NCBI GenBank assembly: GCA_028583605.1
Contig: CM053328.1
Coordinates: forward strand, 2,862,896 to 2,926,895
DNA: 64,000 bases
Direction: 5' to 3'
Source of the DNA: Dastarcus helophoroides
Taxonomy: Eukaryota > Arthropoda > Insecta > Coleoptera > Bothrideridae
Each line of letters begins with the position of its first letter. Positions within the stretch are counted from its first letter, which is position 1. Under the pieces are notes generated by a model that was not told the DNA's origin, did no database searches, and was given only the letters and a program-made list of their open reading frames with translations. The translations under genes and the position numbers were made by a program. Below are positions 2,270 to 58,873 of the stretch, in pieces.

Positions 2270-3175
2270 TGTCTAGTGTTTTACGTACTCACCCGCCTTT
2301 TCGGCATATAGCACGGTCCAACAATGACGATGAACTTTTACGGAGGCTATCAGTTACGCTGATAAGTCGCGTCGCCACGAGGGGTCAGCTATTCCAGTTG
2401 GCTCCTCGCGTATGCAGGTCGCGGATGACCGCTACTGGTTGAGCCAAGTGCCGCACGCTACTGACTGACGTCAGTTGTCTGAGGAAAACGTGCATGTACA
2501 GCGGTTACTAGTAACCGTGTGGGCCCGCTCAACCCTCGCCCAGCATTCGGGCAACCACATGCCATTACGAGGCCTATCTCAGTTTGGTCGATGGGACTAT
2601 TTGGAAAAAATAGCAGGATTGCTTTACGGTCGTTCAAATTCGACCACCCGTAGTGCTCATGTTAAATAGGTCATAGAGTTGAAACACCTGACGTGAATCA
2701 TAACAGACACTCAACTATACGGTGGCGTTCGTTTTCGCTCTTTATAGCGTACGAATTTTCGCGCATCGTAAGTGCATCATTATCAAAATCCACTGCTCAC
2801 TTTTGATCCCTGCATGATCCTGGCCTGAGCGAGGTCATTTGCGCTAACGGCAGTCATGGTGCACCAAGCATGAGGCCTTGGCCTCTGCAGGGTGCACCGG
2901 CGACCGATGACTACCGCATGTTAGTTTGCATTGCCGACGAGGTCGGTTAATGCCAAAAGAGGAGGCGGTATGCATAGGGCTCCAACAGTTGGAAGGCTGT
3001 GCATGTTTTACGTGCGCCTTTCCTACACCAGTCCCCGGAAGTTCAAAGTTGGGCATGCGGCACCCATCTCGTTTTGAGTATAGGTGCCACCCTTCCCCTC
3101 ATCAGCCGGTTTGACCGAGTGTAAGTGGATAGCGCCAAGGGAGGAGGAAGTTCCTCTCGTTTTAATGGCGGGTCT
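2270..3175 (-). other. 3' region of the R1/LOA-group LINE
   Basis: Non-coding stretch between the ORF2 stop and the junction with the minisatellite. Its base composition matches the LINE and not the AT-rich surroundings. It has no poly(A) or short tandem tail at the 3' end (plus strand 2270). No independent gene is seen; short ORFs here are random. Confidence 0.6.
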
Positions 3176-6100
3176 CTATTCCTCATTATTGGGGATAAGA
3201 CGCTCAGCCATCTCATTGAAAATCTCGACCTCCTCCGCCGTAGTGTTTCTGGTAACCATAAATGGATACCGTTGTTCAAGTGTACGCTGTTGGTTGATGA
3301 ACCAATCACGTGCATTTTGCCTACTTACAAGTGGGCAATCGTTCAAAACATGAGAGGCCGTTTCTTGCGTCCCGACCTGACATTCGCAATCGCCGTTTGT
3401 CTCTCCAAGTCGAAACCTGGCTAGATAGGCGTTAAACGGGCCGTGTCCCGTGAGCAACCAAACCGCCTTAGGGTTCCAACCCAGCCACTTTTCTTGGGCA
3501 AGAGGAATATGGGTGAAGGTATGTCTGCCTGTCGTCCCCCTTACCCAAGCGGTCTGCCATTCAGCTATGGCCAGATTTTGAGCCACACGCTTCCGAGTAG
3601 GCCTTGAGACGCTGTTAGGTGCCTCAATGGTGGCTACCCTTCCGCGTGCAGCTTTTTTCGCAGCGCGGCTGGTAAGCTGTAGGCCCCTATCATTGCGGCC
3701 AGTTATCCAGAGAGCAACGGTAGTCCCCCTGTCAGTTTCCAGCATCCTTAAAGTATGCTCTATGGATTCCGGTAGGGGGCCGTTTCTATTTCTAATTGAG
3801 TTCAGAACAATTCTGGACTCAAAAAGTATATTTAAGGCTTCGCCATCGCGTACCAGAATTTGGCACTCTCGTACAGCCAAGTCAATGGCCCATAGCTTAG
3901 CCTCGTGCATTGTGACGGAGACATGATGTCTCCAATGCATTGTTCGAATTGGCTTACCATCCCTATGAGCCGTCATTGCTGACGCAATAAATTGGGGGCC
4001 TTTCGAGATATCCGCGCTTATCCATAGCCCCTCTCTGTGGCGCACGTTGTCCACTGGGGCCAGGTTTGCACATGGTCTCTTTGGCTCCCCCGGATGCGCT
4101 CTAAACCTAGGTTCGAGGTTGCCCTCGTGCTCAGGTCTTAATGTTTGCTGCCAGATTCGGTGTCTGGCACCAGCTTCTAGGTGTAGAGGCATACAGCCCG
4201 CCAGTACTTGCACTGCTGCATTTGGCGCCGTCCTATAGGCCCTTGTTATGGCTAGCATAGCGGGCCTCTGGGCGGCGACCAAGTGTTTTTGGATCCTAGT
4301 GTCACGGCTCTTGGCTCCCCATATCTCCCATGCATACAGGAGGGCGGGTTAAATCGCCCCCCGATAGATCTCACGGTAGATCCAAGGACGCGCACCTCAG
4401 GTCTTACCCGCCAACATTAGAGCTCTGTGGCTCATAGCAGCAACTTTCTTCCTGACATGCTTGGCATGCTCCACCCAGTTTCGCTGACCGTCAACCACCA
4501 CCCCTAAGTACTTAATTGCACTCGTTGGGGTGATGGTGAAATCGTCAAGGCGAATCACTGGTTCTCTCAATATTGCCCGTGCCTTTGAGAACAACACTTC
4601 GGTTTTCTTTGGGGCGTACTGGAGCTTATGCATACTTGCCCACTCATTGCAGGCTGCCCAAACTCCAGTCCAGGCGCGTTCGATTTTCCCAGCAGACGGT
4701 CCCATATTATAATCAGTTGATCGTCCGCATAGGCTTGGACGGCGACCTCGACGGACCTGTGAGTAATCCATCGCGGCGAACTAGTCCTCCATAATGAGGA
4801 GCCAAAGGATCGGGCCAAGACACGATCCCTGTGGGCATCCTCTATTTACTTGGATTTGGGTTCCGCATGAGCTGACTGTTCTGTTGGTGAAAAAGTCTGC
4901 AACTGCCCGTCCTAAGTCGCCTGGGCATCCGCATTCGGATATAAGCTCAATTAGGCGGGGGTACCATGCAGAGTTAAATGCATTCTTGATATCAAGTGCA
5001 ATCGCGACCGCATGCACCCCTCTTGTCGTTGCCCTATCGAGAGTCTCAACTGCCCTCCCTAGGGCGTCCGCGGTACTTCTTTCCTTACGAAATCCGTATT
5101 GTCTATTCGACAAACGTCCACTTGACTCTAGGTAGTGCGACAATCTTTCCGCCAGAACTTTGTCTAAGACTTTACCGATTGTTGGTAGAAGGCATATGGG
5201 CCGTAGCCCGCCTCCCGGCTTTGACAACCAAGTTACTTCTGCCGTTTTCCAAACTGTCGGAAATGTCCCCTCCCGCAGACACTTCATGAAGACTAGTGCC
5301 GCTCTGTCCCCCACTAGGTCTAGAAGCGACACCAGCCCCGCAACCGGGAACCCATTCGGTCCGGGTGCCTTATTTATTGGCTTGCCCTCTCGGGTTTTCC
5401 TCAACTCGTCGACGACCGTCACAGCCAGGTCGCGGTCAGGATTCCATCTGGGAACGTGGTTCCTGATTTCCTCGTTAACCGCGTTATCCGGCTGGAGCCT
5501 GTCGTCGGGAAAGTATTTCCCGAGCAGAGCTTGAGCCGTTTGTGTTCGATTTTGCGTCCAAGTTCCGTCTGGGCGCTGCACGGAAGACCATTGTGACGTG
5601 CCGCGTTTTTTGGAGATCATCTTGTAAACCAATCCCTATGGATCTCTAGGGTCAGTGCTACTGATTAGCTCCCTAAAAGATCGGATCTTGGCGTCCTTGA
5701 TTTTCTTCCGCAATTCGCGCTTTAGTGTTCGGTGTGTACCTACTAACACGGTCTTTCTGCCAGGATCCCGTTCCTTTTGAGCTAATCTCCTGGCCCTATT
5801 AACCTCTCGCTTTTTATTCTTGGTTCCACCAAGGTCGTGACCTGATGGGATTTTGGGCTAGCTGAGGCATGCTCTCTACACATGCTCTAATAGCTGTGTG
5901 TTGGATCAGTTCAGCCGCATCGTTTGCGTTCAATTGCCTAATGTGGTGGAGTTCAAGACTATTGAGTACTTCGGCATATCTGTCCCAGTTCGCTCTGGAG
6001 ACATCAAACTTGGTTCCCCTGATAGCACTTCCCTCGTGCGCTCCATTGGCGTCCGAGGACACCTCAAAGCTCACCAGTTTATGATCACTGAGCGTTTCGT

Positions 6101-6686
6101 CTTCCGAAACACGCCAGTTCGATACCTCCACGCTTTTGCTGAGTGTGAGGTCTATCCAGCTATGCCCGTTAACTGTTTCAAATGTCGGAGCGGAGTCCCA
6201 GTCATTTTCCACCGTTATGTTTGAGGCGGATATGGTCTCCATGACCACATCCCCTCTTACAATGCCGATATCATCACCCCCGGCTAACTGGCCCCATGCA
6301 GCGTTCCTGGCATTGAAATCACCGGCTACGACTAGGGGTAGGTCCCCTGCCGCAATTTCGGCTATTTTAACCAGCGTTTCCTCTAGTCTTTTCGTCCTCT
6401 CCACATAGACATTGGCGACCACTAGTTTCCCAATGGCCACCGTTATGATGCGGTCGCCACAAAACTGTTCCAGCTTGATAGAATCGTGCTGATCCCTCAC
6501 TAGCGTGACACATTTGGTGCTTGAGTCACCATACGCCCTCCAACCCTGTGTGGGGGGAATGGCGCTGTATGGCTCTTGAACCAGTATCACGTCAGTGCCG
6601 TTTACCTCAGCCCTTCGACGAAGAAGGTCTACGGCCTCGCGGCCGCGTCCCGTGTTCAATTGTAGGAATTTTAGTGAACTGGGCAT
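3176..6686 (-). pseudogene. LINE ORF2: APE endonuclease-reverse transcriptase-RNase H-like, broken
   Basis: The start is the ATG at 6686, 24 nt after the ORF1 stop. The first open segment (6686-5814) is an APE-type endonuclease. It has LQLNTGRG at the N-terminus, VQEPY, GDFNARNAAWG, SWIDLTL and SDHKL, the usual active-site blocks. The frame shifts near 5815, and there is an in-frame TAG near 5636. The next segment (5632-4781) has reverse transcriptase blocks PGPNGFP, DIKNAFNSAW and GCPQGSCLGP. The YADD box lies in another frame (ORF 4818-4567), and the original frame resumes in 4771-4397, so at least two more frame changes occur. The last segment (4282-3176) has the R1-like YRTAPN...AGCMPL block. 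An RNase H-like stretch follows in which the expected 'DS' reads ES. A C-terminal CECQ...H...C knuckle closes the protein. Endonuclease and RT together place it in the R1/LOA group of non-LTR elements. At least four disruptions make it non-functional. Confidence 0.9.
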
Positions 6687-6710
6687 CGCTGCTATCGTTC
6701 CGCTATATTC

Positions 6711-8198
6711 CTAATTCGCCGGTCCCGAGCCCGTGGAGTATTGGGACGAGGTCCCGTGCTCCGACCCACAGGACTCGGCGTTGTTTTGTTTCTCACGGTG
6801 TGGGAATTCGACCTTACCTACCCGCTGTGGACCGCCCCTATTATGGCGGCGACGTATTGCCGCACGAGCGGGGTCACCTAGCAGCGAATGGCTCGTTAGC
6901 CCAATCGTGAGTTTCTGGAGCCCCATGACTATGTCATAGAGCCCTCGTTCAACTGCAAAAGTGTAGTTCTCCGACCTACCACTTTTGCTTTTCCTTTTAG
7001 CGAGGAATTGAAATTTACTCTCAAAATCCTCCTTATTAACCACCCTAGACAGATCGTCATTGAGATCATAGATGGCCTCTCGGAGATCTTCCCCGGAGTA
7101 ACCCTCGGTTACCCCGGTTACTATTACTCTGGGAGGGGCCTTTACTTTTCCGCCGATGACTTCAAAGTAACCCTTCGACCTGAGTATTCTCTCTAAGGCT
7201 TCTTTTTGATCTGCGTTATAGCTGATCAGTACCACACCCCCTTTATCGGGTACAATGACCCTCTTCCAGGGGCCCCCAATGTCCCTGGCGTCGACGACCC
7301 GGGAGATGAGTTTCCTCACCTCCACCGGCCTCCGTCCGCCACTGAGCACAATGGTGTTATAGCTTTTGTCGGGCTTTAATTCCTTGGGCTTGTGCTTTCG
7401 CTTTTCCTGGTGCTCCTCTTTGCCCTTCGGAGCCGACCGCGACAGGAGTTGAGGGGCACCAGCTTTAGAAACGCCTTGGAGGGCCGCTTCTTTGGCCGGC
7501 GCCTGCTTCTTCCCCTGTGTTGCCGTTATTTTGGCAACTGGGGATTTGGCTTTTTCAGCGACCCACTGCCTCCAGCCTTCCTCTTTGACCTTCAGAGCAC
7601 TGGCCGCCTCAGACAGGACCTGGCAGCTCTCCAGCACGGTTTCCAGAAGGGTTTTAACTTCCTCCTGCTCCGGTCTGTTGAACCGCACTCTCCCGCCGTT
7701 TCGGCGTGTGGTTGCCTTCGAAATTGTATCCGCGGCAGATCTGATGTCTGCCGCAGCTTGGCTTACCTCATCAATGATGAGGCTCGCCGTTTTGCGTTCA
7801 ATGCCTGATGGACCGGCTTCCGAACCTACGGCGAGTGCCTCCTTTACGGTTTTTACCCCGCTCGCGTCGCTTTCGGTCTTAGTCCAGGTCCTCGGCTTTT
7901 TGAAGGGGGCACCTGGCGCCTCTTTGGGGTCCAAAGATCTCTTTTTTCCCCTCGGATTTGCCGTGGTGTGTTCGATTGAGGGACCTACATACCTCTCGGT
8001 CTCTGGTGCCCCGTGTGGTTTCTTGACCTGCGTTGCGCAGATCGTTGTGCGTTCAAGTAGAACGATCGGAGGGGCTTGCGCTCTTCCTTCTCGTTCTTGA
8101 TTTGTCTTGCCTTCGGTTCCCGAGGGTACCGCAGGCAGTGATAGCTGAGTTTCCTCAGCTGTACGGTGTTCAATAACTATGTTTTGTGAAGAGCTCAT
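6711..8198 (-). CDS. LINE ORF1 (gag-like nucleic-acid-binding protein)
   Basis: One open frame of 495 codons from the ATG at 8198; a longer reading from a GTG at 8210 is possible. The N-terminal half is charged and low-complexity (KKRS, KKPRTW, EKRKHKPKELK). The C-terminal half from about residue 280 has a compact R1-type gag region: 'NTIVLSGGRRPVEVRKLI', 'VILISYN'-like strands, and 'PRVIVTGV'. The pair of CCHC zinc knuckles normally found at the C-terminus of R1-type ORF1 is not visible. After 'VMGLQKLTIG' the frame continues into a Ser/Arg/Gly tail, so an old frameshift probably removed them. The protein would coat LINE RNA. It lies 24 nt upstream of ORF2, as in other two-ORF LINEs. Confidence 0.75.
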   Translation of the reverse strand: MSSSQNIVIEHRTAEETQLSLPAVPSGTEGKTNQEREGRAQAPPIVLLERTTICATQVKKPHGAPETERYVGPSIEHTTANPRGKKRSLDPKEAPGAPFKKPRTWTKTESDASGVKTVKEALAVGSEAGPSGIERKTASLIIDEVSQAAADIRSAADTISKATTRRNGGRVRFNRPEQEEVKTLLETVLESCQVLSEAASALKVKEEGWRQWVAEKAKSPVAKITATQGKKQAPAKEAALQGVSKAGAPQLLSRSAPKGKEEHQEKRKHKPKELKPDKSYNTIVLSGGRRPVEVRKLISRVVDARDIGGPWKRVIVPDKGGVVLISYNADQKEALERILRSKGYFEVIGGKVKAPPRVIVTGVTEGYSGEDLREAIYDLNDDLSRVVNKEDFESKFQFLAKRKSKSGRSENYTFAVERGLYDIVMGLQKLTIGLTSHSLLGDPARAAIRRRHNRGGPQRVGKVEFPHREKQNNAESCGSEHGTSSQYSTGSGPAN

Positions 8199-8210
8199 AT
8201 TAGTTTCCAC

Positions 8211-10657
8211 GAGTAAATGACACAGTTAGTCGCACCCAGTTTTGTCTTTCTAGGTAAAGTCACTGATACTGTACAGGTTGACAGTTCCTGCACAGGTTGG
8301 TGGTTCGCGGTCATGCATTTACTCCCCTGACCTTGCAGCCCCTCGGCACCTATCCGTTTTCTCTTCCGACCTTAGGCATAGGAGGTTTGTTTGCGAAGTT
8401 TCCTTCCTGGGGTTTTCTCCCCGCAAGCCGGCCGGTTAAGGCAAGCTCACCGTTGGTGTCCCCACTCCGGAATTTCTTCCGTAGAACTCTCAACTCCGTA
8501 CGGTCAGTGGATTTTCTGCATTCGAAGATACAGAGCATCCACCGTGGCCCTTTTAGCCTCCGTTGGAGGCCCCAGGAACCTTTTCCGGCATGTGGTCTTG
8601 GCCAGGCTCGACCACTCCAGCATTCTGCTATAAGGGCTGGGCATGGACCCCAGACCTTCTGGCGGTCTCCTCGTTCAGCGGTCGATTCCCGAGCATGAGG
8701 TGTTGATTCCTCGCTCCGCAGATCTTTCCTCTGAGGGCGAACCTGCCTTTTGTTCTGGGTATCCACCATACCCCTGGTTGCAGTTCCAAAAATAATTTTG
8801 GCATAAAAAAGGCCGACGAGGCAACAGCTGATAAGTCAGCTAGTATACCTCGCCGGCCGAATAATTTTGCAAGCTGCTTCACTGCCTGTTTCCCCAAGTC
8901 CTAGGACCATTATAGGAAAGTGAGCATGTGTTGCAGCTCGCCCCTTCGCCCCAACGTCTGTTCACGCAGGTTTTGCGCCAGCTCCTGCCCCGGGGCTCAT
9001 CGTGGCTTGCCGAGTGCAGGTCTAGTACTAATTTAGCGCCCAGACATTGTTGTGGAGTGATGGAGTGAGACTCCCTCCCACCCTTTGACGCGATAACGCA
9101 GAAGACGACATCCGCGCTCGCACCCCGGGGGGAGGGAGAGTCCCTGTATAATGAGTGATCGGACATGTCGGGCCGAGTCCAATAGGCACCCGGTGTTCCC
9201 CATAGTGGGGACGTATACCAGGCGCCCCGTTCTCTCCTTCGTCCTCTCTATCTCATTATTCGGTCTAAGTCTCGAAAGACAGCTATGACACTACCGGATT
9301 CCAAAATATCGCCCTGTGGCCGTCCTCCGCCTGGTCGCGCTACGGTGTGCTCGATCGGGCGACATGCGCATTTCGTGTTGTCGCACTGTCTGCATCCTGC
9401 ACCAGGAAGACTCACGACAGTCGTCTGTCGGGTCTCTCACGGGTGTTCCAGATATCGCGACTAGTGCAAGCGCTTGGAAACACGCAGCCCCGTCGGTTCC
9501 GATTGGCGTCCAATCTGCATGAGAGACGAGCTCGACGGTTTGATATGCAAATGCCTCATACCATGAGCCAGCAGATTAAATCTCTTTTGGACGTACACCC
9601 TTTTGTTATCCAATCCGACCATTCGAAAGCGGGGCCCGTGGGACGCCCGTCTCAGGTCACAACTCTTCATGGTCAACACTCTTCCGGCGGGTTTGGGTTA
9701 CACCCTCCCCCGTTAGAAAGTGGTAGAACCGTTGATAAGGGGCTGCTCCTTTGAGGGGCGCCAGGGTTCCAAATCACCTCTTGGACGTAAGAGGAAACCG
9801 TACTTCGCTTTTTACCATCGAAAGACCCGCTAACGATACTGGTCTTAAACTCTGGGCTTTTGGCTGCCCTAGTGGACGCACCCAGTTCTCCAGGGTTCTC
9901 CCATCTTGGATAGGCCTTTTAAACCGGGCATCTGCCGCCGTGGACACGTCAAGTCCCTGAAATTCGAACTCCATCTGTTTTGGAGTCACTAATCTCCGGC
10001 TCATTGGAGTTGTGGCACTTAGACAGACAGCGAGTGCTTTCTTTGCGGCTTTTACCCCGCTAGCGTCGCCTGTCCACCCTCGTACCACCCCATTCACCCA
10101 TCTGCCAAAGCATCAGGCGACCTCATCCGGCGGAGGCAAGCCACCGCCTTTTGAAGCGCCATACTGAACCTTACTTTCTTCTCGGCTTCACATGCTTTGT
10201 TCGGTTTTCTCGATGTGCCACAGCACTGGTGTTAATTGCCACTTTGCGTCCTGAGATTAACCCTGGGTTACGCTATGCCAGGTTTCCCTGTAGGCGCCCT
10301 TCCAGCCACTGGCTGGGCAGGCTGATCCAACAGGGATAAGAGATAGGTATGTCAGCCTTCGCTCAACGGGAGTCAGCTCTGTCTAGTGTGTGCTGGAACT
10401 GAGCGATCGAGCGATACACAAGCAAGCGACCCTTAGATCATTGGCACCCGCCCAAGCCCAGTTCGGTCGATGTTTGGTCGACAAGGCCTAATGAGCGCAG
10501 AAGTCCAGATCTCCGGGGGCACCATTGACGTCTCTTTAGCGTGTCCCACTCTCACCTCTAGGAGGTGCTCAGCAAACATCATATATTTATGATGCTGTTC
10601 GGGGCGTGTACGTTACTTTATTGCAGCGTTACACGTGGCAGCCCCCCGACAAGAGCG
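8211..10657 (-). other. Long 5' leader of the LINE with a second degenerate ORF1 fragment
   Basis: About 2.4 kb between the left end of ORF1 and the upstream junction with the minisatellite. The segment about 10100-9774 encodes 'DASGVKAAKKALAVCL', which matches ORF1 'DASGVKTVKEALAVGS' (nucleotides 10029-10075 against 7830-7880). It is therefore a decayed second copy of the ORF1 N-terminal region. A GC-rich hairpin (GGCCGACGAGG...CCTCGCCGGCC with an inner AGCTGA/TCAGCT stem) lies at 8811-8859. Other ORFs here show no recognisable domain. Confidence 0.55.
8811..8859. other. GC-rich hairpin in the LINE leader
   Basis: An 11-bp stem with one mismatch (GGCCGACGAGG against CCTCGCCGGCC) encloses a second short stem (AGCTGA/TCAGCT with a TAAG loop). 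On the minus strand it is followed by TTTTTTAT. It could be a structured leader element; no function is shown. Confidence 0.5.
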
Positions 10658-11696
10658 GGTAGATGCGCAGTAGGTAAATGCGCAGTAGGTAATTGCGCAG
10701 TAAGTAGGTGCACAAAAAGTAGGTGCGCAGTGAGTAGGTGCGCAGTGAGTAGTTGCGCAGTGTGGGTAGGAGCGCAGTATGTAGATGCGCAGTGGGTAGG
10801 AGCGCAGTATGTAGGTGCGCAGTAGGTAGGTGCGTAGTGGGTAGGTGCGCTGTAGGTAGGTGCGCTGTAGGTAGGTGCGCATTGGGTATGTGCGCAGTAG
10901 GTAGGTGCGCAGAAGGTAGATGCGCAGTAAGTGAATGCGCAGGAGGTAGGTGCGCAGTAGGTAGGTGCGCAGTAGGTAGTTGCGTAGTGGGTAGGTGCGC
11001 AATAGGTAGATGCGCAGTAGGTAAATGCGCAGTAGGTAGGTGCGCAGTGGGTAGGTGCGCAGTAGGTAGTTGCGCAGTAGGTAGTTGCGCAGTAAGTAGG
11101 TGCGCAGTGAGTAGTTGCGCAGTGTGTAGGTGCGCAGTAAGTAGATGCGCAGTGGGTAGGAGCGCAGTAGGTAGGTGCGCAGGAGGTAGATGCGCAGTAC
11201 CAAAGTGCGCAATAAATAAGTGCGCAAGAGGTAGGTGCGCAGTAGTTGGGTGCGCAGAAGGAATGTGCGCAATAGGTGGGTGCGCAGTGGGTAGGTGCGC
11301 AGTAGGTAGTTGCGCAGTAAGTAGATGCGCAGTGGGTAGGTGCGCAGTGAGTAGTTGCGCAGTAAGTAGATGCGCAGTGGGTAGGAGCGCAGTATGTAGT
11401 TGCGCAGTAGGTAGGTGCGCAGTGGGTAGGTGCGCAGTAGGAGATGCGCAGAAGGTAGATGCGCAGTAGGTGAGTGCGCAGTATGTAGGTACGCAGTAGG
11501 TATGTGCGCATTAGGTAGTTGCGCAGTAGGTAGTTGCGCGGTAGGTAGGTGCGCAATAGGTAGGTGCGCAGTAGTTAGGTGCGCTGTAGGTAGGTGCGCA
11601 AAAGGTAGGTGCGCAGTAGGTTGGTGCGCAACAGGTGGGTGCTCAGTGGGTAGGTGCGCATTAGGTTAATGCGCTGTAGGTAGGTGCGCAGTAGGT
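10658..11696. repeat. 15-bp minisatellite array 3 (right part of the split array)
   Basis: About 69 copies of the 15-bp unit. It begins abruptly at the LINE 5' junction and ends in the same satellite context as array 1 ('aaatttgatcttaaataatttactagctgtta'). With array 2 it forms one array of about 100 units cut by the LINE. Confidence 0.9.
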
Positions 11697-18680: not shown

Positions 18681-20700
18681 TTTATTTATTTATTTATTTA
18701 CTCGTTCCAACAGACTTAAGTCTATAGTGGAAAAATACCTACATACTTAAAAATATAGCATGATAAAAATAAGAACCTAATAATTTAAATGGTATTACAT
18801 AAAAAAAGAAAATGTATAACAAATAAAGAATCCTAATAAATAAAAATAACAGAAATAAAAATAAAATAAAAGGAATCCAATAATTTGGTGTACAGAATTA
18901 ATATTAATTTATTGAATAACAATACTACGTAACTCTAAGTAACTGTCTTTTTATACGCGGAGAACTTAAATTGTCAAGAAATATATCTATGTTTTGCGGA
19001 AGGCTATTAGACAAGCGAATGCATCGAAACAATGGGCTGTTATAATGGTGCAAAGTGGATGGGATAATATGAGAAAATGCCATGGGATAGCGTGTGTTAG
19101 GTCGCGGAACATGAAAGTCAATTTGTCGCAACAAATCCTCGGACCTTATTTTACCAGTAACAATTCTTTGAAAAAGTATTAAGCAGTGCATATTTCTGCG
19201 GCTGGTTAAAGGTACTTCATTGACCATATTTAGCAGCCACCAATAATCACAGTTCCGCTCTGGATAATTTCCATACATTTTAAGAAATACATATTTTGCA
19301 AATTTCCTATTAATTCCTTCCAGCAGATTGTTGTAATTTTCATAGTAAGGACTCCAGACCTGACAACAGTACTCGAGTTTAGACCTTACTAGCGAATAAT
19401 ATAATGTTTTTATACAGTGAATGCTTGTGAAGCCTCTCGTGTTTCTAAATACAAAACCTAATACTTTTGTGGCTTGCCTCCAAACTTGTAAAATATGAGG
19501 TATAAATGTGAGCTGCGCATCCATAATAACTCCCAAATCAGTCATTTGGGTGCATCTGTCAATAACTTGGCCCTCGATCAAATAATGACAATTTATAGGA
19601 TTCTGAATCCTGGAGAAGGTTAATATTTTACATTTCTTTTTATTGAGTGCCAGTCCATTACAGTCACACCAATTTGCAGAGAATCCAAATCATCTTGCAA
19701 AATAGAGCAATCATTTACGTTCGTTATTATTTTAGCAATTTTTAGGTCATCCGCGTATATAAAAGTTCTACATTTAAAACCTACAACTACATCATTAAAG
19801 AAGATATTAAACAATAATGGACCAAGGTTGGAACCTTGTCCTACTCCGCTGGTTGGAAAGTAAGGGTTAGATCTAAATCCACCGTATGACACAATTTGTT
19901 GTTTATTGGTTACAGTCGATTTTATTAAATTAACTAACGAGCTACTTAAACCAAATAGACGCAATTTCTTTAACAGTATACAATGATGAACTTTATCGAA
20001 TGCTTTCGACAAATCTGTGTATATCGCATCAACTTGTAATCGCTTATCAAGAGCATTCGATACATATTGCGTAAATTCCATTAAGTTTGTAGTAGTCGAT
20101 TTGCCGATTACGAATCCATGTTGTTCTGCTGTTAAATTAGAAAGACTTGGATGATTTAATGCATCATATATAACACACTCAAAAAGTTTAGCGACATTCG
20201 ACATCAATGCCACTGGTCTATAATTTTTTATATCCGCTCTATCGCCAGATTTGTGTATGGGTATGATGTATAAAGTTTTCCATTGGGTGGGAACCAAACA
20301 AGAATTTAAAATTAGATTAAAAATATGTTTCAATGGTAAGATCAGGAAATTGATGCAATCGACAATCAAAAAAGCCGGTAATTCTGGATAAACTGCTGAA
20401 ATTCGATTCGACATTCATATTTAATTTCTCTTCTTAATTGCTTCAATAAATTAAGGTGGTATAGAGATTTCGATTTTCTGTAAATATTCCAGTGTTTATT
20501 CTTATTATGGATTTTCTGAATTATGCTTTTGGTGAACCAAACTGGATAATTTTTCTGACGACCTTTTTTCGAACATAACGGTACGTGCTGCACGAATATA
20601 TCATATAATTTGTTAAAAAACTGATCGCTTGCAATTTGAGGATCAGATATATCTAAAATTGATGTCCAGTTTATATTCGCTATAGATAGATAAACAATAG
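18681..20700 (-). mobile_element. 5'-truncated Jockey-like LINE with target-site duplication
   Basis: ACCAATTTTA occurs at both edges (18671-18680 and 20701-20710), a 10-bp target-site duplication. The 3' end is a short (AAAT)n tail, read as TTTATTTATT at 18681 on the plus strand. Only the distal part of ORF2 is left. The endonuclease and the whole 5' part are missing, as expected for incomplete reverse transcription. Confidence 0.88.
18925..20690 (-). pseudogene. Jockey-like reverse transcriptase, truncated and broken
   Basis: The segment 20690-20366 encodes the linker before the RT (CSKKGRQKNYPVWFTKSII). The segment 20414-19620 encodes the RT core, with IIPIHKSGDRADIKNYRPVA, AFDKVHH (first catalytic Asp), SGVGQGSNLGPLLFN and YADD. 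The segment 19581-18925 encodes the conserved C-terminal domain (SKLEYCCQVWSPYY, ERNCDYWWLLN, NTRYP, LSNSLP). Frame changes occur near 20400 and 19680. The join near 20400 also seems to lack about 100 residues compared with intact relatives. An RT of the Jockey/CR1 assemblage is clear; the exact clade is not certain. Confidence 0.88.
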
Positions 20701-43319: not shown

Positions 43320-46300
43320 AAAATTTCTATACTCTATGGTTTAGTGAGGCAGTGCGTTCCACCGTACCCCTTTCAAAATAATGTCAACGGTTGGCAGTGG
43401 GGTGCGTTCAGTATTTTCTATTTTTAATTACCAAAATTTCGACGGTTTTTTTGAAATTTCGACTGTTTCCATAAAATTTTGACTGCTTTCTTGAAATTTC
43501 GACTTTAATTCTCGACATTTCGAATTTAACGTCGAAATTTCAACTTTTTTCTCAACATTTCTATAATCTATGGTTCCGTTAGGCAGATGACAGTTGCGTC
43601 CCATTACACTTCATTCAAAACGTTATTGAAAGTTGGCAGTAGAGTGCGTTCATTATTTTCAATTATTAATTACTAAAATGCTGACTGTTCTTTTGATATT
43701 TCGACTGTTTAATTAAAATTTCGACTTTTTCCTTAAAAATTCGACTTTAAATCTTCGAGTAAATCGAGTTTTGTCAAAATTTCGACTTTTTTCTCGATAT
43801 TTCTATTATCTATGGTTCAATTAGGCAGATGACAGTTGCCTTCCACTACTCCCCTTTACCGATAATATTATCGGTTGGCAGTAGCGTGCGTTCAGTATTT
43901 TCTATTATTAATTACTAAAATTTTGATTGTTTATTTGATATTTCGACTGTTTTCTTAAAATTTCGACTGTTTTCTTAAAATTTCGACTGTTTTCTTAAAA
44001 TTTCGAATATTTTCTCGACATTTCTACATTCTATGGTTCAGTTGGACAGATGACAGTTGCGTCCCACTACACCTAATTCAAAACAATATTGATAGTTGGC
44101 AGTAGAGTGCGTTCAGTATTTTCGCTTATTAATTACTAAAATGCTGACTGTTCTTTTGATATTTCGACTGTTTTCTTAAAATTTCGACTGTTTTCTTAAA
44201 ATTTCGACTGTTTTCTTAAAATTTCGACTGTTTTCTTAAAATTTCGACTGTTTTCTTAAAATTTCGACTCTTTTCTCGACCTTTCTATGATCTATGGTTC
44301 AGTTAGATAGATGACAGTTGCGTCCCACTACACCTCATTCAAAACAATACTGACCGTTGGCAGTAGAGTGCGTTCAGTATTTTCTATTATTAATTACTAA
44401 AATTTTGACTGTTCTTTTGATATTTCGACTGTTTTCTTAAAATTTCGACTGTTTTCTTAAAATTTCGACTGTTTTCTTAAAATTTCGACTGTTTTCTTAA
44501 AATTTCGACTGTTTTCTCGACATTTCTATAATCTATGGTTCAATTAGGCAGATGACAGTTGCGTCCCACTACTCCCCTTTCCAGATAATATTGTCGGTTG
44601 GCAGTAGGGTGCGTTCAGTATTTTCTATTATTAATTACTAAAATTTTGACTGTTTTTTATATTTCGTCTGTTTTCTTAAAATTTCGACTTTTTTCTCGAC
44701 ATTTCTATAATCTATGGTTCAATTAGGCAGATGACAGTTGCCTTCCACTACTCCCCCTTTACCGATAATATTATCGGTTGGCAGTAGCGTGCGTTCAGTA
44801 TTTTCTATTATTAATTACTAAAATGCTGACTGTTCTTTTGATATTTCGACTGTTTTCTTAAAATTTCGACTGTTTTCTTAAAATTTCGACTGTTTTCTTA
44901 AAATTTCGACTGTTTTCTTAAAATTTCGACTGTTTTCTTAAAATTTCGACTTTTTTCTCGACATTTCTATAATCTATGGTTCAATTAGGCAGATGACAGT
45001 TGCGTCCCACTACTCCCCTTTCCAGATAATATTGTCGGTTGGCAGTAGGGTGCGTTCAGTATTTTCTATTATTAATTACTAAAATGCTGACTGTTCTTTT
45101 GATATTTCGACTGTTTTCTTAAAATTTCGACTGTTTTCTTAAAATTTCGACTGTTTTCTTAAAATTTCGACTGTTTTCTTAAAATTTCGACTGTTTTCTT
45201 AAAATGTCGACTCTTTTCTCGACATTTCTATAATCTATGGTTCAGTTAGGCAGATGACAGTTGCGTCCCATTACACTTCATTCAAAAACGTATTGAAAGT
45301 TGGCAGTAGAGTGCGTTCAGTATTTTCTATTATTAATTACTAAAATGCTGACTGTTCTTTTGATATTTCGACTGTTTTCTTAAAATTTCGACTGTTTTCT
45401 TAAAATTTCGACTGTTTTCTTAAAATTTCGACTGTTTTCTTAAAATTTCGACTGTTTTCTTAAAATTTCGACTGTTTTCTTAAAATTTCGACTGTTTTCT
45501 TAAAATTTCGACTGTTTTCTTAAAATTTCGACTGTTTTCTTAAAATTTCGACTGTTTTCTTAAAATTTCGACTGTTTTCTTAAAATTTCGACTGTTTTCT
45601 TAAAATTTCGACTTTTTTCTCGACATTTCTATAATCTATGGTTCAATTAGGCAGATGACAGTTGCGTCCCATTACACTTCATTCAAAAACGTATTGAAAG
45701 TTGGCAGTAGAGTGCGTTCAGTATTTTCTATTATTAATTACTAAAATGCTGACTGTTCTTTTGATATTTCGACTGTTTTCTTAAAATTTCGACTTTTTTC
45801 TCGACATTTCTATAATCTATGGTTCAATTAGGCAGATGACAGTTGCGTCCCATTACACTTCATTCAAAAACGTATTGAAAGTTGGCAGTAGAGTGCGTTC
45901 AGTATTTTCTATTATTAATTACTAAAATGCTGACTGTTCTTTTGATATTTCGACTGTTTTCTTAAAATTTCGACTGTTTTCTTAAAATTTCGACTGTTTT
46001 CTTAAAATTTCGACTGTTTTCTTAAAATTTCGACTGTTTTCTTAAAATTTCGACTGTTTTCTTAAAATTTCGACTGTTTTCTTAAAATTTCGACTGTTTT
46101 CTTAAAATTTCGACTGTTTTCTTAAAATTTCGACTGTTTTCTTAAAATTTCGACTGTTTTCTTAAAATTTCGACTGTTTTCTTAAAATTTCGACTGTTTT
46201 CTTAAAATTTCGACTGTTTTCTTAAAATTTCGACTTTTTTCTCGACATTTCTATAATCTATGGTTCAATTAGGCAGATGACAGTTGCGTCCCATTACACT

Positions 46301-49960: not shown

Positions 49961-52193
49961 TTTCGACTTTTTCCTCGAAATTTCGACTTTTTCCTCGAAA
50001 TTTCAACTTTTTCCTCGAAATTTCAACTTTTTCCTCAACATTTCGATTTTAGCTTCAAAATTTCAACTCTAACCACCGCATTTTGAGAAAAAAAATTTAA
50101 AGGTCCAGAGAAGCTTTAAATTGGTAAAATTGTTCAAGACAACGAGAAATTGGGAGAGAAATTCGAACATTTTAAGAAAAATTTGTTCAAGATAACGAGA
50201 AATTGGAAGAGAAATTCGAACATTTTACGATAAACTTGAAATATTTTTGCTATAAAATGAGTTTGTAAATGACAAGTTCAAACATGGAATTTTGATAACC
50301 TTTTAAATATTTCAAGAATAAAGGTAGAAATGAATTTTTTTTTTCACAGATAATGTTTTTATTTTGGTACAAACTTTCTTACAAACATGAATTTTTCTCA
50401 AAATTTTGGGTTAAAACTAGTTTTTTTTACAAATTTAGAATTTTACCCACTGTATTAGTAACTTCAAATTTCTAAACTCGAAAATACCAAGAAGTTAAAA
50501 CCTCTGCTTTTTATTCAAATTTCGCCTTTTCCGCCAAATATTTAGTTTGGCATTTAGATTTTACTTTTTTTCCCCAAAATTTCAACTTTAGATTCAAAAT
50601 GTCGATTTTACTTTGATTTTAAGGTCAAACTGTCGAGTTTTTTTTCGAAATTTTGATGTCTAAGGTCAAAATTTCGCAGAAAAAAAAAGAAATTTTTTTA
50701 CTTTAATCGGCAAATATCAATCTTCATCGAGAAATGACTTTCATTACTTACGAAATTTGACTTTAATCGCGGAATTTCGGATTTAAATATATCGAATTTT
50801 TTACTTTAATTGCCACATTTCGAGAGAGAACTTTTTGTAGTTTATTCAAAATTTTGATCAATTTTCGAGTTTAAAAATGTCAACTCGGAATTTAATAAAA
50901 TTTGAAATTCTCAACGATTTGCTTAGAAATTGTAGAAAAATGAAAATTTCATTATTAAAGTTTAAACTTTAACAATCACTTTTCAATTCCAAGCAAAACT
51001 TAGACGATTAAAAAAAAATGTGGATACCTTTCTTTTCAAATTAAGGCTATTTTAATTTTAAAAAACTAAAAATTTCAAATTTAAACTTGGGAGAGAATGT
51101 AATAAAATTTGAAATTCTCAATGATTTGCTTAGAACTTCTAGAAAAATGAAAATCTCAGTATTAAAATTTAAACTTTAACAATCACTTTTCACTTCCACA
51201 AAATTTAAACGATTTCAAAAAATGTTGATACCTCTCTCTTTACATTTAGGTTATTTTTATCTTAAAAAACTAAACATTTTAAATTTGAACTTAGGATCTT
51301 TAAAATGTAATAAAAATTTGAAAATAACCTCGAAATGTCTTCTCCAAATTTCCTCAAAGCTTCAAAATGTTCAAAAAAGATTTGCAAGTTTGATAAAGTT
51401 GTTAATAGGTTTTGGTTTTTTTTTTTGTAATTTTGACGTTTATCATAAAATCTCTCATTTAAATTTCAATTGTTGTATTTTTTTCTAAAATTTCCATTTC
51501 AAACAAAAAATGTATTCTTTTTCCAAAAATTATGACTGTTTTCTTGATATTTACAATTTAATCTCTACATTCAAATGTATAAAAGAACCAAGTACTAAAG
51601 AGAGTTGTGATCTTGAGAAATTTTTACTTATGAATTTATAAATTGAGACAAAATTTCGATCTTTTCTCAAAAATTGACTTTTAACATATTTTCCTTTGTA
51701 GATTCGATTATTTTGAAATATTCCTAATTTTGAAAATTCCGAACTTTTTTCAAAATTTCCACTTTTTTTGAAAATTTCAACCTTTGTTCAAAACTTGAAC
51801 TATTTCTCAAAGTTTTGAGTTTTTTGAAAATTTCGAATTTTATTTTTCAAAAATTTCGACTTTTTTCGAAATTACGACGTTTTTTCGAAATTTCGTTTTT
51901 TCGAAATATCGACTTTTTTTCGAAATTTCGACTTTTTTTCGAAATTTCGACTTTTATGTAAATTTGACTATTTTTAAAAAATTCTATTTATTTTTTAAAA
52001 ATTTCGACTTCTTTAAAAAGTTGTAGTTTTTTAAAATTTCGTCTTTTTGAAATTATCGATCTTTTTTTCAGAATTTCTACGTTAGCTGAAAATTTCAACC
52101 CGAAATTTCGACTTTTCGTGTTTACTCTTTTTTCAAAATTTCAACTTTTTTTGAAAACTTCAACCTTTCTTCTAAGATTTCAACTTTTTTTTG
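49961..52193. other. AT-rich degenerate repeats, no gene
   Basis: Variants of 'gaaatttcgacttttt' on the plus strand. A short direct duplication at about 50880-51230 ('caatcacttttca', 'gatttgcttagaa') is visible. No supported ORF. Confidence 0.5.
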
Positions 52194-52445
52194 AATATTT
52201 CACCTTGTTGAGATAATAAGCCTTGTATATACGAATATATACAAGTTTTTACGATGCAATTGAAATCTAATTTCATTAGAATCTAATGAAAATTAGACTG
52301 CAATTGCAAAGTTCACGTAGATGAGGCAAAGCTTGTATCATCGCAACATCCATAGATACAAACGTCCTCGGCGTGACTTTACTTTCATCTAGTTTTGACA
52401 AATGACCAATTAAATGTTCTGTAATTAAACAGTTAAACGTGCTTA

Positions 52446-52506
52446 AAATTGAAAATATGTACAACCGCAACCATAGACTAGTTTCGACCTTCCTTGGCCT
52501 CATCAT
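52446..52506 (-). ncRNA. Degenerate hammerhead ribozyme (5' side lost)
   Basis: Read on the minus strand it has TGATGA, GGCC-AAGGAA-GGTC, GAAA, ACTAGTC and the 3' strand of stem I (TATGGTTGCGGTTGTACAT). The conserved C before TGATGA is A, and the 5' strand of stem I is absent. It therefore should not cleave. Confidence 0.8.
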
Positions 52507-52875
52507 GTTTAATTACAGAACATTTAATTGGTCATTTGTCAAAACTGGATGAAAGTAAAGTCACGCCGAGGACGTTTGTATCTATGGATGTTGCGATGCA
52601 ACCCGTGATACAAGCTTTGCCTCATCTACGTGAACTTTGCAATTGCAATCTGGTTTTCATTAGATTCTAATGAAATTAGATTTTAATTGCATCGTAATAA
52701 ACTTGTATATATTCGTATATACAAGGCTTATTATCTCAGCAGAGAGTAATGCTTCAATTAGCATGTAGCGAAAATGTTTGCGTAATAAACAATTAAAAGT
52801 CAGTTACAAGTCACCCAATGGAGGTTTACTCTCTTGGATACTTATACGACTGACTAACGGCTTTAAATTGGAAGT

Positions 52876-52946
52876 GTGTACAACCACCATACCATGCTGA
52901 TGAGGCCAAGGAAGGCCGAAACTAGTCTATGGTTGCGGTTGTACAT
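52876..52946 (+). ncRNA. Hammerhead ribozyme, type I, minimal stem III
   Basis: All conserved parts are present. The core is CTGATGA (52897-52903). Stem II is GGCC/GGCC (52904-52907 with 52914-52917) with loop AAGGAA. GAAA is at 52918-52921. Stem III is the tiny palindrome ACTAGT (52921-52926), with predicted cleavage after C52927. Stem I has an inner 6-bp helix (52891-52896 with 52928-52933, one G-U) and an outer helix of about 10 bp (52876-52885 with 52937-52946). An asymmetric internal loop separates them (ACCAT/TGC), as needed for the loop-loop contact of natural hammerheads. Palindromic minimal stem III is typical of hammerheads that act as dimers in Penelope-like retroelements. Activity is predicted, not shown. 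Confidence 0.88.
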
Positions 52947-53019
52947 ATTTTCAATTTTAAGCACGTTTAACTGTTTAATTACAGAACATTTAATTGGTCA
53001 TTTGTCAATATTTCACCTT

Positions 53020-56010
53020 TTTTCAAAATTGTGGCTTTCTCTTGAATCTTCGAATTTCTGTAAATTTCGATTTTTTTGAGGAATTCGCCTTTTCCTGAAA
53101 ATTTCGAAACTTATTTAAGGCGGCGGTCTGGTACTCTTAAAACGTCGAAATTCTTCGCTTGCCATTTTACAAACTACGTCAATACTATCGCTTAGAATTA
53201 AATGAAATTTGGTAATAATGTTTAGAAATGTTGGGGAATTCGGGCTTTGGAAGCAGATTTTTGATTTTTGTCTTAGTATTCCCACAAATGGGCGTACAAT
53301 TTGTCTCTTTTTTTGCCTGTTTTCAGAAGCGAATATCTCGGAAACTAAACGGAATTTGAAAAAAGTACTTCCAAAGCGCTAATTCGACATCCTTGCTTCA
53401 TAAGTTCTCCAAATTTGAAAACAAAATATTAAAAAATAAAGGCACCATTTGTAAAATGGGAGAGCGGTGTTTGGCATAAAAATTGCGCTTAGATTTCGGT
53501 TGCCCTCACTCAGATGAGGCAGGGTACGGAGACGGACGTGATGCGGAGCAGAGAAATTTTTGCCCCTTCCCCAATACGTTATCAACGAACGAAGTATCTT
53601 CGGCTTCCACAGCTCATATTTTTTTATCTAAGCACGGCAAATATATCATAATAATAATAATAAACAACATTAAAACATTTGTTCTACCAGAGTTTGAGCG
53701 TAAAATGAATTGTTTAGTATTTGTAGCTTACAATCATTTACTGAATATTTAATGGTTTTTGTTTTGATATGTTTAGAAGAATTTTTTTCTCTCCTAATTA
53801 ACATTTTTATATTACTCTTTGGAAAAATATAAATTGTTCAGGTAAATAAATGCTACGACAGATTTAAGAGAAAAAAAATTGATTTTATATTATTTAAATT
53901 GGAAATGCTATATTCTGCTAGCATCACTTGTAATCGAAAATCGACCAATTATATCTGCAAAGAACGAAATTGTTTTTCACATAATTAATTAATAGGTATT
54001 TAGATGCAGATATTTAGTCCTTATCTTGATAATAGGAGAAAATGCGTGGGAAAATAAAAATTTCAGCTCTGAAAATTTTGAATTCCTCGAAAATTTTGGC
54101 TTTTTTCAAAATTTCGATAGTTTTTTGAAAATCTACTTTTTTTTTGAAAATCTCAACTTTTTCCACAATTTCGACATCTTGAAACTTTGGACTGTTTTTG
54201 AAAATTATGAATTTTTTTGAGGAATATGATTTTTATGATAATTTCGACTTTTCCTTATTTAGTTTTGAAAATTTCGACCACTCACTAAATATTTCGACTT
54301 TTCTTGAGAATTCCTATTTTTTGATGCATATTTTCAACTTTTTTTTCAAAATCTCTAGTTTTTATTGAAGAATTTGACATTTTTAATTTCTATTTTTTTA
54401 ATGATTTCGACTTGGACATTTTAAAATTTCCAGTTATTTCAAATTCTCATTTAAAAAAAACCAAAATTTTGACTTAATTAGAAAATTGTAACCATTTCGA
54501 AATTTTCCTTTTTCTAAAGTAGTGCTATTTTTGGAATTTCCTAAATTTGTCAAAATTTCAACTTTTTCATCAAATTTTTATTTTGTTGTATATCTCGACT
54601 TCCTTTAAAAATATTTTGTTTTTTTTTTGACAACTTCGACATTTTAAAAAGGTGTACAAACAAATAATTCCGACAAGGTCAACATTTTCGAAAATTCGAA
54701 TTATTAGAAAAAAAGTCGAAATTATTAGAAAACCGAAACAAAAATAGTAACATTCCAAAACTCACGAATTAAAAAAAAAAGGCAAAAATTTTGTGGAAAT
54801 TTAGAAAAAAAGTTGTCCCAAAGTCAAATTTTTCGAAAAAAGTTGGAATTTTGAGAGTAAAACCGAAGTGCCAACAAAGAAGAATTTTCAGAGAAAATTC
54901 GCAATTTCGAGAAAAGACTGTGCTTCCGTATCTTTGTACAAAAGTTTATGTTAATTTTAAAGGAATTAACAGGAAACAAAAGGGTAAAAGGAAGCATTTT
55001 TAAGTCACCTATTTCTAACTATGTACTTTACCTGCTTAGAGAACTGAAAGAAGGAATACGTGTCAAAGGATTTTTTTAAAAGTTTGCAATTCGGTAGCCC
55101 AATTTTAAGATTTTCTCTCGAAATTTTGAATTTAAAGTTTAAACTATTCGAAGTTTCCCAGAGATTTTGAAATTGTATGGAAAACCTCCGCAAGAATATC
55201 GAATATTTCAATTTAAAATCAAAGTTTTGTGACTAATGGGAACTCGAGCACTTCCTTACATAAATCTCATTTTTTAAAAATCTGTTGTTATTTTTCAAAA
55301 ATTTCAGTTCAAATGTAAAATCGTTCTTTGTATCATAATTTAAAGAGAATAGTTGGAATTTTTTTTAAAATTTTGACTATTTTTTCAGAATTTCCAATCT
55401 AGATCTGAAATTGTTTTTTTGTTTGGACTTGCAATTCTATAAAGAAAAATTAAATTTTTAGCTTTTATTTTCCAGTCAAAATGAAAATAACAAAAAAAAA
55501 CTTATTTTTTAAATTTTAAAATAAACTAACATTTCAGATAAAAGTCGAAAAAAAATTATTTGGAAAAAATTCATGCAACGTCTATTTTAATTTCAAAATT
55601 CCGTGAAAAATTTTTAAATTTCTGGCATAATTTTGTTCAAAGTTTTTTCCAGAATTTTGACTTCTCAAATTCCGGAACCTAAATTCGAGTTTAAGAAAAT
55701 ATGAATTCTAAATTCGAACTAGAAAATAAATAAATAAAAATGAATAAAAATTGACATTTGAAAAACTGAAATTTCAGAAATCTTGTAATTTCCACTTTTT
55801 TTCTAGAAATTCTATTTTAAAGTCTAAGATTTGGGAAAATAATTTGAAATTTCCAATTTAAACTTTCTGATTTTTTTTCAGAATTTATTTAAATATATCC
55901 TTTTTTAAGTATAACATTTTCACTCATTTCTCGAAATTTTGTTTTTAAAAGTCTAAATTTTAACAGACTCTTTAAATAACATAAAATTTTGACATTTTAG
56001 TCGAAGTTTA
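53020..56010. other. AT-rich region, no gene seen
   Basis: 53110-53600 is a more complex stretch ('gcttgccattttacaaactacgtc', 'tcagatgaggcagggtacgg') that could be an old interspersed repeat. 53760-54040 looks unique. The rest is AAATTTCGAC-type repeats. The ORFs at 53379-53585 and 53483-53752 have no domain. Confidence 0.45.
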
Positions 56011-56023
56011 CAATTTTTCTCAA

Positions 56024-56327
56024 TTTTAGTGGAACAGACTGGTCCTTGGTTATCTTCAAAAATTGAAATACATAAATTGTCCCCTGAAACCAAGAAAGAT
56101 TAAAATCACAACAAAGGTTACTCTAACGCGTTTCGGCAGCCAAGCTATTATCTTCAGAGAGATACTGACTGAAACCAAGAAAGATTAAAAAAACACAACA
56201 AAGGTTGCTCTAACGCGTTTCGGCAGCCAATCTATCATTTTCAGAGAGATACTGATGGAAACGCGTTAGAGCAACCTTTGTTGTGTTTTTTAATCGTTCT
56301 TGGTTTCAGGGGACAATTTTTGTATTT
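56024..56327. mobile_element. 304-bp composite of three hammerhead-like units with 13-bp TSD
   Basis: CAATTTTTCTCAA lies on both sides (56011-56023 and 56328-56340). Inside are two minus-strand units in tandem (about 56024-56165 and 56166-56250) and one plus-strand unit facing them (about 56252-56327). The first unit has a complete head (CUCU/AGAG stem I, CTGAAGA, stem II, GAAA, ACGCGT). The second has a core change (CTGAAAA). The third has lost stem II (CTGATG fused to GAAACGCGT). Confidence 0.85.
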
Positions 56328-56340
56328 CAATTTTTCTCAA

Positions 56341-57599: not shown

Positions 57600-57914
57600 T
57601 TTGGTCGAACGGACTGATCCTTGGTTATCCTCAAAAATTGAAATACAAAACTTGTCCCCTAAAACCAAGATAACTAAATAGCTTGATAGCGAAGGCTTCC
57701 ACGGCCAGAGTCAGTACAGGGTATACTTCTTCCGGGATTGGACCGTGTCAAAGAACTACTAAAATTGTTGAATACTTTTAGTAGTTCTTTGACACGGTCC
57801 AATCCCGGAAGAAGTATATCCTGTACTTACTAAATAGCTTGGCTATCGGCGTTAGAGCAATTTTTTTTTAAATCTTTCTCGGTTTCGGGGGACAAGTTTT
57901 GTATTTCAATTTTT
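57600..57914. mobile_element. Hammerhead-like repeat insertion carrying a long hairpin
   Basis: TTAAGAGTCTGAC (57587-57599) and TTAAGAGACTGAC (57915-57927) form a 13-bp target duplication with one mismatch. The insertion has an inverted body at the left ('ggactgatccttggttatcc...'), a decayed head at the right ('agcttggctatcggcgttag', GAAA lost) followed by a direct body, and a 113-bp hairpin between them. Confidence 0.8.
57714..57826. repeat. Hairpin with 51-bp arms
   Basis: Arms 57714-57764 and 57776-57826 are reverse complements with about one mismatch ('gggtatac' against 'gtatatcc'), around an 11-nt loop. The arm contains 'ttccgggattggaccgtgtc', GC-richer than the surroundings. It is the inner part of the composite element above. 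Confidence 0.88.
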
Positions 57915-57927: not shown

Positions 57928-58571
57928 ATTTTAAATTGCGAATTTAAAACTGGCATTTTAAAGAGAATTAGATTACTGAAAAGTTAAAAAAAAAAGTCGA
58001 AATTTAGAAGAATTTTCGAGTTTGAAAACTAAGCATGGATTTTTGTGTAAAAGAACATAAATTTTGAATAAGTTTTAAGCAAAATATTTTTATTTTGTCT
58101 TATCGAGTCCAGTTTGTTAAATATCAAGTATCTTATTATTTAAATAAATAAAATGGTTTACTTCTATTTAAAAAAAATGTGTGATTTAAGGCGAGTTAAT
58201 AAGGATCTCAAAACGAAAAAGAATAGAAATTTTACGTAAAAACCTGATTTTTAACATTAAATTTCGAGAAAAAGAATACTTTAACGTTTTTGTAATTCGC
58301 GTACTATTAACATGGCAGCTCACCGGCCCCATGAAGCACGGTCTCCGGACATTTGCCCCCTTTACCCTTCCTATTTCGGTTGTCAAACAATAATATGAAC
58401 TTAACGACAGCTGAAATTGCGACATTTCTAACCAAACATAACTTTTTTTATCAATAAATAGGAAACGTTGTCAACAGTTTTTTTTTCAGAAAAGTTTTAT
58501 ACCTACATCAATTATAACATTTACAAAAATTACATTTAAAATCTTGATGAGCTGTTTAAAAAAATACCTAC
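57928..58571. other. Mmp intron sequence, no gene seen
   Basis: AT-rich. A somewhat GC-richer patch at 58290-58390 ('catggcagctcaccggcccc') shows no exon-like frame with splice sites that I can support. Confidence 0.4.
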
Positions 58572-58873
58572 TTCCAATATCTGTTGCCGCTGTAGAAATA
58601 CGTGTGGCCGTTGTGTCCCCAAACCATGGCGGCGTCCAATTTTTTGAGAGTGGCAGGCAGTCCGAGATCAGTCAGTGGCCTGGGATATCCACTTTCGAGG
58701 ATATTCCCGGTGAAAACGTAAAAAAGTTTTCCGATAAAGAACACGATCTTGTGGTCGGGACGTTCGTACACCGCATCGACGTGGGTGAGGTTGTGAGGAA
58801 GTCCTCTCCAAAGTCTTATGATCTCAGCTGGGTAACCAGGCAGCAGGCCTCGATCGCCGATTCGCCAAAAGTA
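58572..58873 (-). CDS. Matrix metalloproteinase exon: hemopexin blades 1-2
   Basis: A 302-nt exon with acceptor tttttag (plus strand 58874-58875) and donor GTAGGT (plus strand 58566-58571). It encodes YFWRIGDRGLLPGYPAEIIRLWRGLP, HVDAVYERPDHKIVFFIGKLFYVF and KKLDAAMVWGHNGHTYFYSGNRYW. These are hemopexin-repeat patterns (DA...., YF.G..YW). It continues in frame from the hinge exon. The exon ends after the second base of a codon, so at least one more exon with blades 3-4 and the closing Cys must follow. I did not find it in the window. Best match by eye is an insect Mmp, perhaps Mmp2-like, but the symbol is left open. Confidence 0.92.

Follow-up and report, generated by a model that had tools for sequence, protein, structure and literature searches.

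A hammerhead-bearing, retrozyme-like unit of Dastarcus helophoroides whose two-armed insertions pair two end sites

The stretch of Dastarcus helophoroides DNA analysed here (64,000 nucleotides, hereafter the window) harbors a sequence that resembles a hammerhead ribozyme. The question raised by this locus is whether the hammerhead is genuine and, if so, what carries it and how the carrier becomes inserted. An initial annotation, restricted to the motif, had described a complete type I hammerhead with a palindromic stem III of the dimer type, and both parts of that description hold. Positions 52897-52927 read CTGATGA, GGCC-AAGGAA-GGCC, GAAA, CTAG and TC, so that all core elements are present, and CUGANGA, stem II, GAAA, NUH and an open stem I follow one another in the correct order for a type I hammerhead. 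Because of this order, and of a GTC triplet that ends at 52927, cleavage would be expected after that position. Stem I is divided into two parts by an internal loop, as proposed, but the length first given to it, about 16 bp, was too low: the inner helix has 5 pairs (CCATG/TATGG) and the outer helix 16 (52870-52885 with 52937-52952).

Table 1. Features of the hammerhead and of the insertion that carries it (positions in the window; u, position in the unit).
Feature	Position	Strand	Basis or remark
Type I hammerhead ribozyme, both stem I helices included	52870-52952	+	Core pattern, Rfam, fold
CTGATGA core	52897-52903	+	N7 = 52901, T in the window copy
Stem II GGCC/GGCC, loop AAGGAA	52904-52917	+	Core reading
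Stem III palindrome ACTAGT	52921-52926	+	Predicted cleavage after 52927
Left target-site duplication, AATATTTCACCTT	52194-52206		Longest exact direct repeat at the element ends, 13 nt
Right target-site duplication, AATATTTCACCTT	53007-53019		Partner of 52194-52206
Inverted (left) arm, partial copy	52207-52505	-	Unit positions 392-465, then 0-235; outer end = site B
Complete 466-nt unit (u0-u465)	52506-52971	+	Bounded by an exact 37-nt repeat
Tail, repeating the initial 37 nt of the unit	52972-53008	+	37/37 identical to 52506-52542; outer end = site A
Site A region	52530-52550	+	Outer ends after about 52540-52542, equivalent to 53006-53008; hairpin loop of the predicted circle
Site B region	52733-52750	+	Outer ends mostly after about 52738-52742; hairpin loop of the predicted circle

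The bare core pattern is insufficient as evidence: it matches once in the window against 0.37 matches expected, and is present in 32 of 100 shuffles. When the stems are included (at least 4 pairs in stem I and at least 3 in stem II), the type I descriptor yields one match in the window and is matched in 7 of 300 first-order random windows. The predicted fold has a minimum free energy of -35.7 kcal/mol (z -5.7), and none of 200 shuffles is as stable. Stems and fold together rule out a chance motif. The early claim spoke of compensatory pairing; in the evolutionary sense this finds no support, as no compensatory stem changes were seen among the sampled copies, which show few stem changes of any kind. 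Compensation can therefore not be offered as proof of the fold, and in one diverged copy (L046) stem II appears, by eye, out of register. The suggested covariance search did return a match, with HH9 (RF02275) as the best Rfam model (27.9 bits; E 1e-4 when 801 bases were searched, 0.0086 for the whole window), but below the gathering score of 52. No family reached its gathering score in the 64-kb window, in an output that omits lower-scoring overlapping models of the same clan.

Stem III consists of ACTAGT only. When two copies are folded with RNAcofold, the ACUAGU palindromes pair as a double hammerhead at -76.0 vs 2 x -37.3 kcal/mol, a gain so small that energy hardly decides between monomer and dimer. 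In a sample picked with a ribozyme query, and biased for that reason, ACTAGT is retained in 56 of 57 rows, and all 52 full rows, drawn from 29 insertions, have an intact core. The only core position that commonly changes is N7, where any base is allowed; among 55 sampled rows it is C in 33 and T in 22. Outside this genome, one exact core pattern was compared with viral contigs and gave 0 matches. Judged from its sequence, the hammerhead is real, of a known kind, and by itself an ordinary further example.

The hammerhead lies within an insertion of 800 bp (52207-53006), in which an inverted partial copy is followed by one 466-nt unit and a tail of 35-37 nt, with a 13-nt duplication on either side (Table 1). 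This larger structure, including the inverted copy of its 3' part at 52395-52505, had escaped the initial annotation. The inverted arm begins within the hammerhead core, past the 5' strand of stem I and the first C of CTGATGA, and therefore contains no complete ribozyme. Compared with the direct unit it is identical at 293 of 310 positions, and the 17 differences include a 9-nt deletion. The last 2 bases of the tail also match the right duplication. Elsewhere in the genome, tandem copies of the unit are spaced 465-466 nt. Treated as a circle, the unit has a longest open stretch of 89 aa, and a carrier of 466 nt with no long reading frame is therefore retrozyme-like rather than a Penelope element itself. 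The predicted fold of the circular unit is highly stable (-153.6 vs -96.5 for shuffles, sd 5.4; 0 of 100 as stable), with 73% of the bases paired. The GC content of 52001-54000 is 0.325.

These properties resemble those of metazoan non-LTR retrozymes, for which the available part of Cervera and de la Pena 2020 (PMC7229834) describes type I hammerheads, short AT-rich tandem units, duplications above 4 bp, highly self-paired RNA and a non-autonomous mode of life, and names insects among the hosts. The element in the window has a small tandem unit with a type I hammerhead, a duplication of 13 nt, low GC and a highly self-paired RNA; its 466 nt lie slightly above the range of about 150-450 given in that part of the source. 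Circular templates are proposed for retrozymes in the same text. Head-to-head arms and two fixed ends were not met there: in the main text, the words 'inverted', 'orientation' and 'head-to' have 0 occurrences. The comparison with Penelope-like elements made at the outset is sound for the motif, as Penelope-like elements and amphibian retrozymes are both on record as having hammerheads whose helix III is weak or missing (available parts of PMC7761336 and PMC7229834, respectively); it does not extend to the carrier, which is no Penelope element. An insect repeat with a hammerhead is also found in the pDo500 family of Dolichopoda cave crickets, which differs in being described as satellite DNA (PMC2837043, by description only, from the part available).

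Small hammerhead variants associated with Penelope reportedly, to go by a title, cleave as dimers. In a comparison by title only, the palindromic stem III found here fits such dimeric cleavage, while the long two-part stem I and a carrier lacking a Penelope frame set it apart (Lunse 2017).

Other features of the window were also recorded. A 15-bp repeat, with the sequence GGTGCGCAGTAGGTA in rotation, forms arrays at 200-704, 1763-2268 and 10658-11696, beside repeats of 154-155 bp. A GC-rich stretch at 3176-8225 (0.52-0.54 over 2001-10000) stands out in the AT-rich window and has LINE-like frames, with an RT domain at 4784-5635 and an endonuclease domain at 5817-6710; a second RT frame lies at 19623-20414. 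A 261-bp tandem repeat with 94% matches and 20-bp sub-repeats spans 44639-45480, with a looser part at 43916-44696. An inverted repeat at 57709-57831 has 61-nt arms, 93% complementary and one base apart, and matches the mir-4659 precursor below its gathering score (43.4 of 92 bits). The minus strand of 58571-58873 carries a hemopexin-repeat frame, which we take to be perhaps an exon of a matrix metalloprotease gene.

Whether the architecture seen in the window is a rule can be read from other insertions. A query of the ribozyme region was run against the 539-Mb genome, and the best 40 of 1495 first-look candidates, with 98-100% identity, were scored. These 40 matches correspond to the insertion in the window and 28 others, all of which were retrieved, so that 29 insertions were mapped: 19 two-armed (L014 doubtful) and 10 one-armed. 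The outward 3' ends, 48 in all, fall 24 times at site A (u28-44) and 18 times at site B (u227-244), with 6 elsewhere (one each in L009, L014, L019, L029, L034 and L036). Hence 42 of 48 ends lie within two windows 17 and 18 nt wide in a unit of 466; the windows were drawn after the ends had been seen, and ends were taken as BLAST reports them, a few extending some bases into the flank. One-armed insertions end at A in 7 cases, at B in 1 and elsewhere in 2. Duplications of at least 11 nt flank 19 of the 29 insertions, and the longest arms reach 1833 nt, nearly 4 units (L018).

The ends are not only fixed but paired. Each of the 15 two-armed insertions with a 12-14-nt duplication has one end at A and the other at B, and neither A+A nor B+B was found (0 each); by simple arithmetic the chance of such an outcome is 0.5^15, about 3e-5. 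The other 4 of the 19 two-armed insertions (L009, L014, L019 and L036) provide no clean fit, with an off-site end and duplications of 6, 3, 11 and 3 nt. Joining of the arms driven by microhomology was ruled out: junction microhomology showed no excess over a simulated null.

A second query, placed outside the ribozyme, gave 42 matches, window included, after scoring the best 40 of 171 first-look candidates, and the first 6 insertions other than the window were read. All 7 visible outward ends in these are at A or B, in a sample that favors B ends because the query itself ends at B. The single insertion with two visible ends (L070) is A+B. No duplication longer than 8 nt was detected in the 6 insertions (L073 has 7 nt and L075 has 8 nt; L070, L071 and L074 have none; L072 is cut off by the end of the retrieved stretch). 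Ribozyme copies, 7 in number, were seen in 5 of the 6 loci, in a search that needs CTGANGA and GAAA and to which broken cores are therefore invisible. Stem III is changed in one of the 7, which might speak for an inert hammerhead carried along as a relic. Against that interpretation stand the intact cores of the ribozyme-query sample described above, biased as it is, and we consider a relic improbable.

The reading we favor, with a probability of about 0.7, is that the unit is a non-autonomous retrozyme whose hammerhead processes its RNA and whose insertion is carried out by a Penelope-like enzyme with RT and GIY-YIG activities, priming on both target strands at two fixed loops. The motif, unit, tail, inverted arm, duplications and two end sites are observed directly, as are the A+B pairing within the sample and, in several insertions, variants common to both arms; that the ribozyme is active, that a circle forms, that a helper enzyme acts and in which order the steps follow is inferred. 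Multimeric transcripts would cut themselves, and the 466-nt monomer would be closed into a circle. A Penelope-like RT/GIY-YIG endonuclease would then cut the target DNA with a stagger of 12-14 nt, and each target strand would prime reverse transcription at its own hairpin loop of the same RNA, one strand at A and the other at B. Either cDNA could extend across more than one unit; the pair would finally be joined head to head, and filling of the gaps would leave the duplication.

An older proposal for Adineta Penelope elements, self-priming of one cDNA, would also produce inverted arms, and head-to-head copies with junction palindromes are so interpreted in the available part of PMC3846280. It does not account, however, for a second end that is fixed 200 nt away from the first or for the A+B pairing of all 15 insertions, and the unit positions at which arms begin are often unrelated (u392 and u0 in the window). 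We regard self-priming as decidedly improbable for this family.

If both strands were primed on one RNA, opposite arms of an insertion should resemble each other. We scored variants against the per-position majority, leaving out common sub-family positions. The Jaccard index of shared variants is 0.545 for opposite arms of the same insertion (44 pairs) vs 0.008 between insertions (2289 pairs), and the observed value was reached in 0 of 1000 permutations in which arms were reassigned among 16 two-armed insertions. All of the signal comes from five insertions (L018, L031, L023, L010 and L032), and the contribution of L023 is one 16-nt deletion counted as 16 positions. The variant u455 is present in 7 of 7 units of L018, and u122, u173 and u278 in 5 of 5 units of L031. 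L024 and L019 have no variants to compare, and in the remaining two-armed insertions the arm overlap is too short for comparison. No variant is common to both arms in L009, L017, L022, L028, L033, L036 or the window. The omitted sub-family positions show some agreement between arms, for instance u266 in L024 and L033, and u119 and u395 in the window. Since its arms have no private variant in common and differ at 17 of 310 positions, the window copy provides no evidence of a single template.

Long palindromes are prone to gene conversion, and arms might have become alike after insertion. Conversion would leave the ends, the duplications and the pairing unexplained, and the arms in the window have stayed different; we consider it very improbable as the source of the likeness.

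More serious is the possibility that the RNA copied is linear, a multimeric transcript from a homogeneous tandem array, with no circle and the rest of the model unchanged. Penelope RNA can be multi-copy, and unprocessed RNA is the main substrate in vitro (PMC11167929); arms of several identical units fit such a template equally well. However, every insertion would require a homogeneous source array of its own, and private variants are common to both arms also in short insertions, whose arms hold about one unit each (L032 and L023). In the ribozyme-query sample 39 of 48 arms span the cleavage site, a weaker objection as an uncut multimer would span it too. We judge a linear template rather unlikely.

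If the unit depends on a helper, the same genome might encode it. A GIY-YIG search gave 91 matches among the 150 scored, the best of 1070 first-look candidates. Thirty loci were retrieved, 10 of which make up one family. An RT match lies upstream of GIY-YIG on the same strand in two members, L066 (37.5 bits) and L043 (28.1 bits, just below the Pfam cut-off of 29.6). In this family, copies end at either of two points separated by about 37 nt, resembling the published Penelope tail (PMC11167929 and the available part of PMC3846280). Where both ends of a two-armed copy are visible, in L038, L040, L061 and L068, there is one of each, within about 10 nt, which is in favor of our model; L041 and L053 have short inverted pieces that end elsewhere.

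An autonomous partner with the sequence of the unit was discarded. Comparison of the unit with the 30 GIY-YIG loci and 3 longer ones detected no sequence shared with an RT/GIY-YIG frame; only L040, L042 and L046 match the unit, none of them as the end of a Penelope frame. The match in L046 is an old copy split by another insertion. The Rfam hammerhead search covered 20 of the 30 loci and gave no match in them, although the L046 relic also escaped it. The unit is probably moved by a Penelope-like enzyme with which it shares no sequence that we could find. The old relatives in L046 (1227-1334 and 2039-2168, the split copy) and L040 (2579-2798) are 68-77% identical to the unit, and the family is therefore long-lived.

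A separate observation concerns 56020-56335 in the window, which matches many loci of an 18-member GIY-YIG group (among the matches listed). Its minus strand carries CTGAAGATAATAGCTTGGCTGCCGAAACGCG, which resembles a hammerhead core with extra bases and has close variants in 9 of the 30 GIY-YIG loci. Two pieces of 57633-57914 (57633-57670 and 57867-57914) match the ends of 56020-56335.

The element inserts in Penelope fashion without being a Penelope element. It has the inverted arm, short tail and duplication of Penelope-like elements, in which pLTRs, an inverted pLTR and a 30-40-nt tail are described (PMC11167929 and the available part of PMC3846280), and differs from autonomous ones in lacking an RT and GIY-YIG reading frame and in end sites 200 nt apart vs 30-40. 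For the Penelope enzyme of Anolis, reverse transcription begins within a stem loop rich in A and C, both target strands are cut and extended, and the 30-40-nt tails match two start sites (PMC11167929); sites A and B likewise lie in predicted loops. Site A is located 81 nt past the predicted cleavage site, and its Anolis counterpart, by subtraction, 85-92 nt (PMC11167929). Several findings count against our model: the four two-armed insertions without a clean fit, the insertions whose arms have no variant in common (the window copy included), the absence of longer duplications in the second sample and the lack of excess microhomology at the junctions. To these the Anolis system adds that, in vitro, the ribozyme is dispensable for insertion, unprocessed RNA is the main substrate, and the start site shows no strand difference (PMC11167929).

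A further speculation, to which we give somewhat less than even chances, is that a dimeric Penelope-type enzyme grips one small circular RNA by hairpins A and B. Each subunit would copy from its own cut strand at its own hairpin, round the circle once or more, and the outcome would be a palindrome of several units, bounded by site A at one end and site B at the other.

What is new is not the ribozyme, whose kind is known, but the paired two-site rule. This rule was not met in the literature searched, including PMC11167929 and the available parts of PMC7229834, PMC4918200, PMC7761336, PMC3846280 and PMC8490949, and no paper combining Penelope, head-to-head copies and hammerheads was found there. 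The work cited above had proposed circular templates for retrozymes and had seen two start sites with two-strand extension in vitro for one enzyme. What Dastarcus helophoroides adds is a retrozyme family whose insertion follows a rule that makes the mechanism more precise. If the dimeric arrangement is true, it would explain the old puzzle of the inverted arms and tails of Penelope elements, and such insertions would be genomic footprints of a circular RNA template. In a genome with so many copies (1495 first-look candidates, the best 40 scored), with readable ends, arms and private variants, both ideas can be tested by counting.
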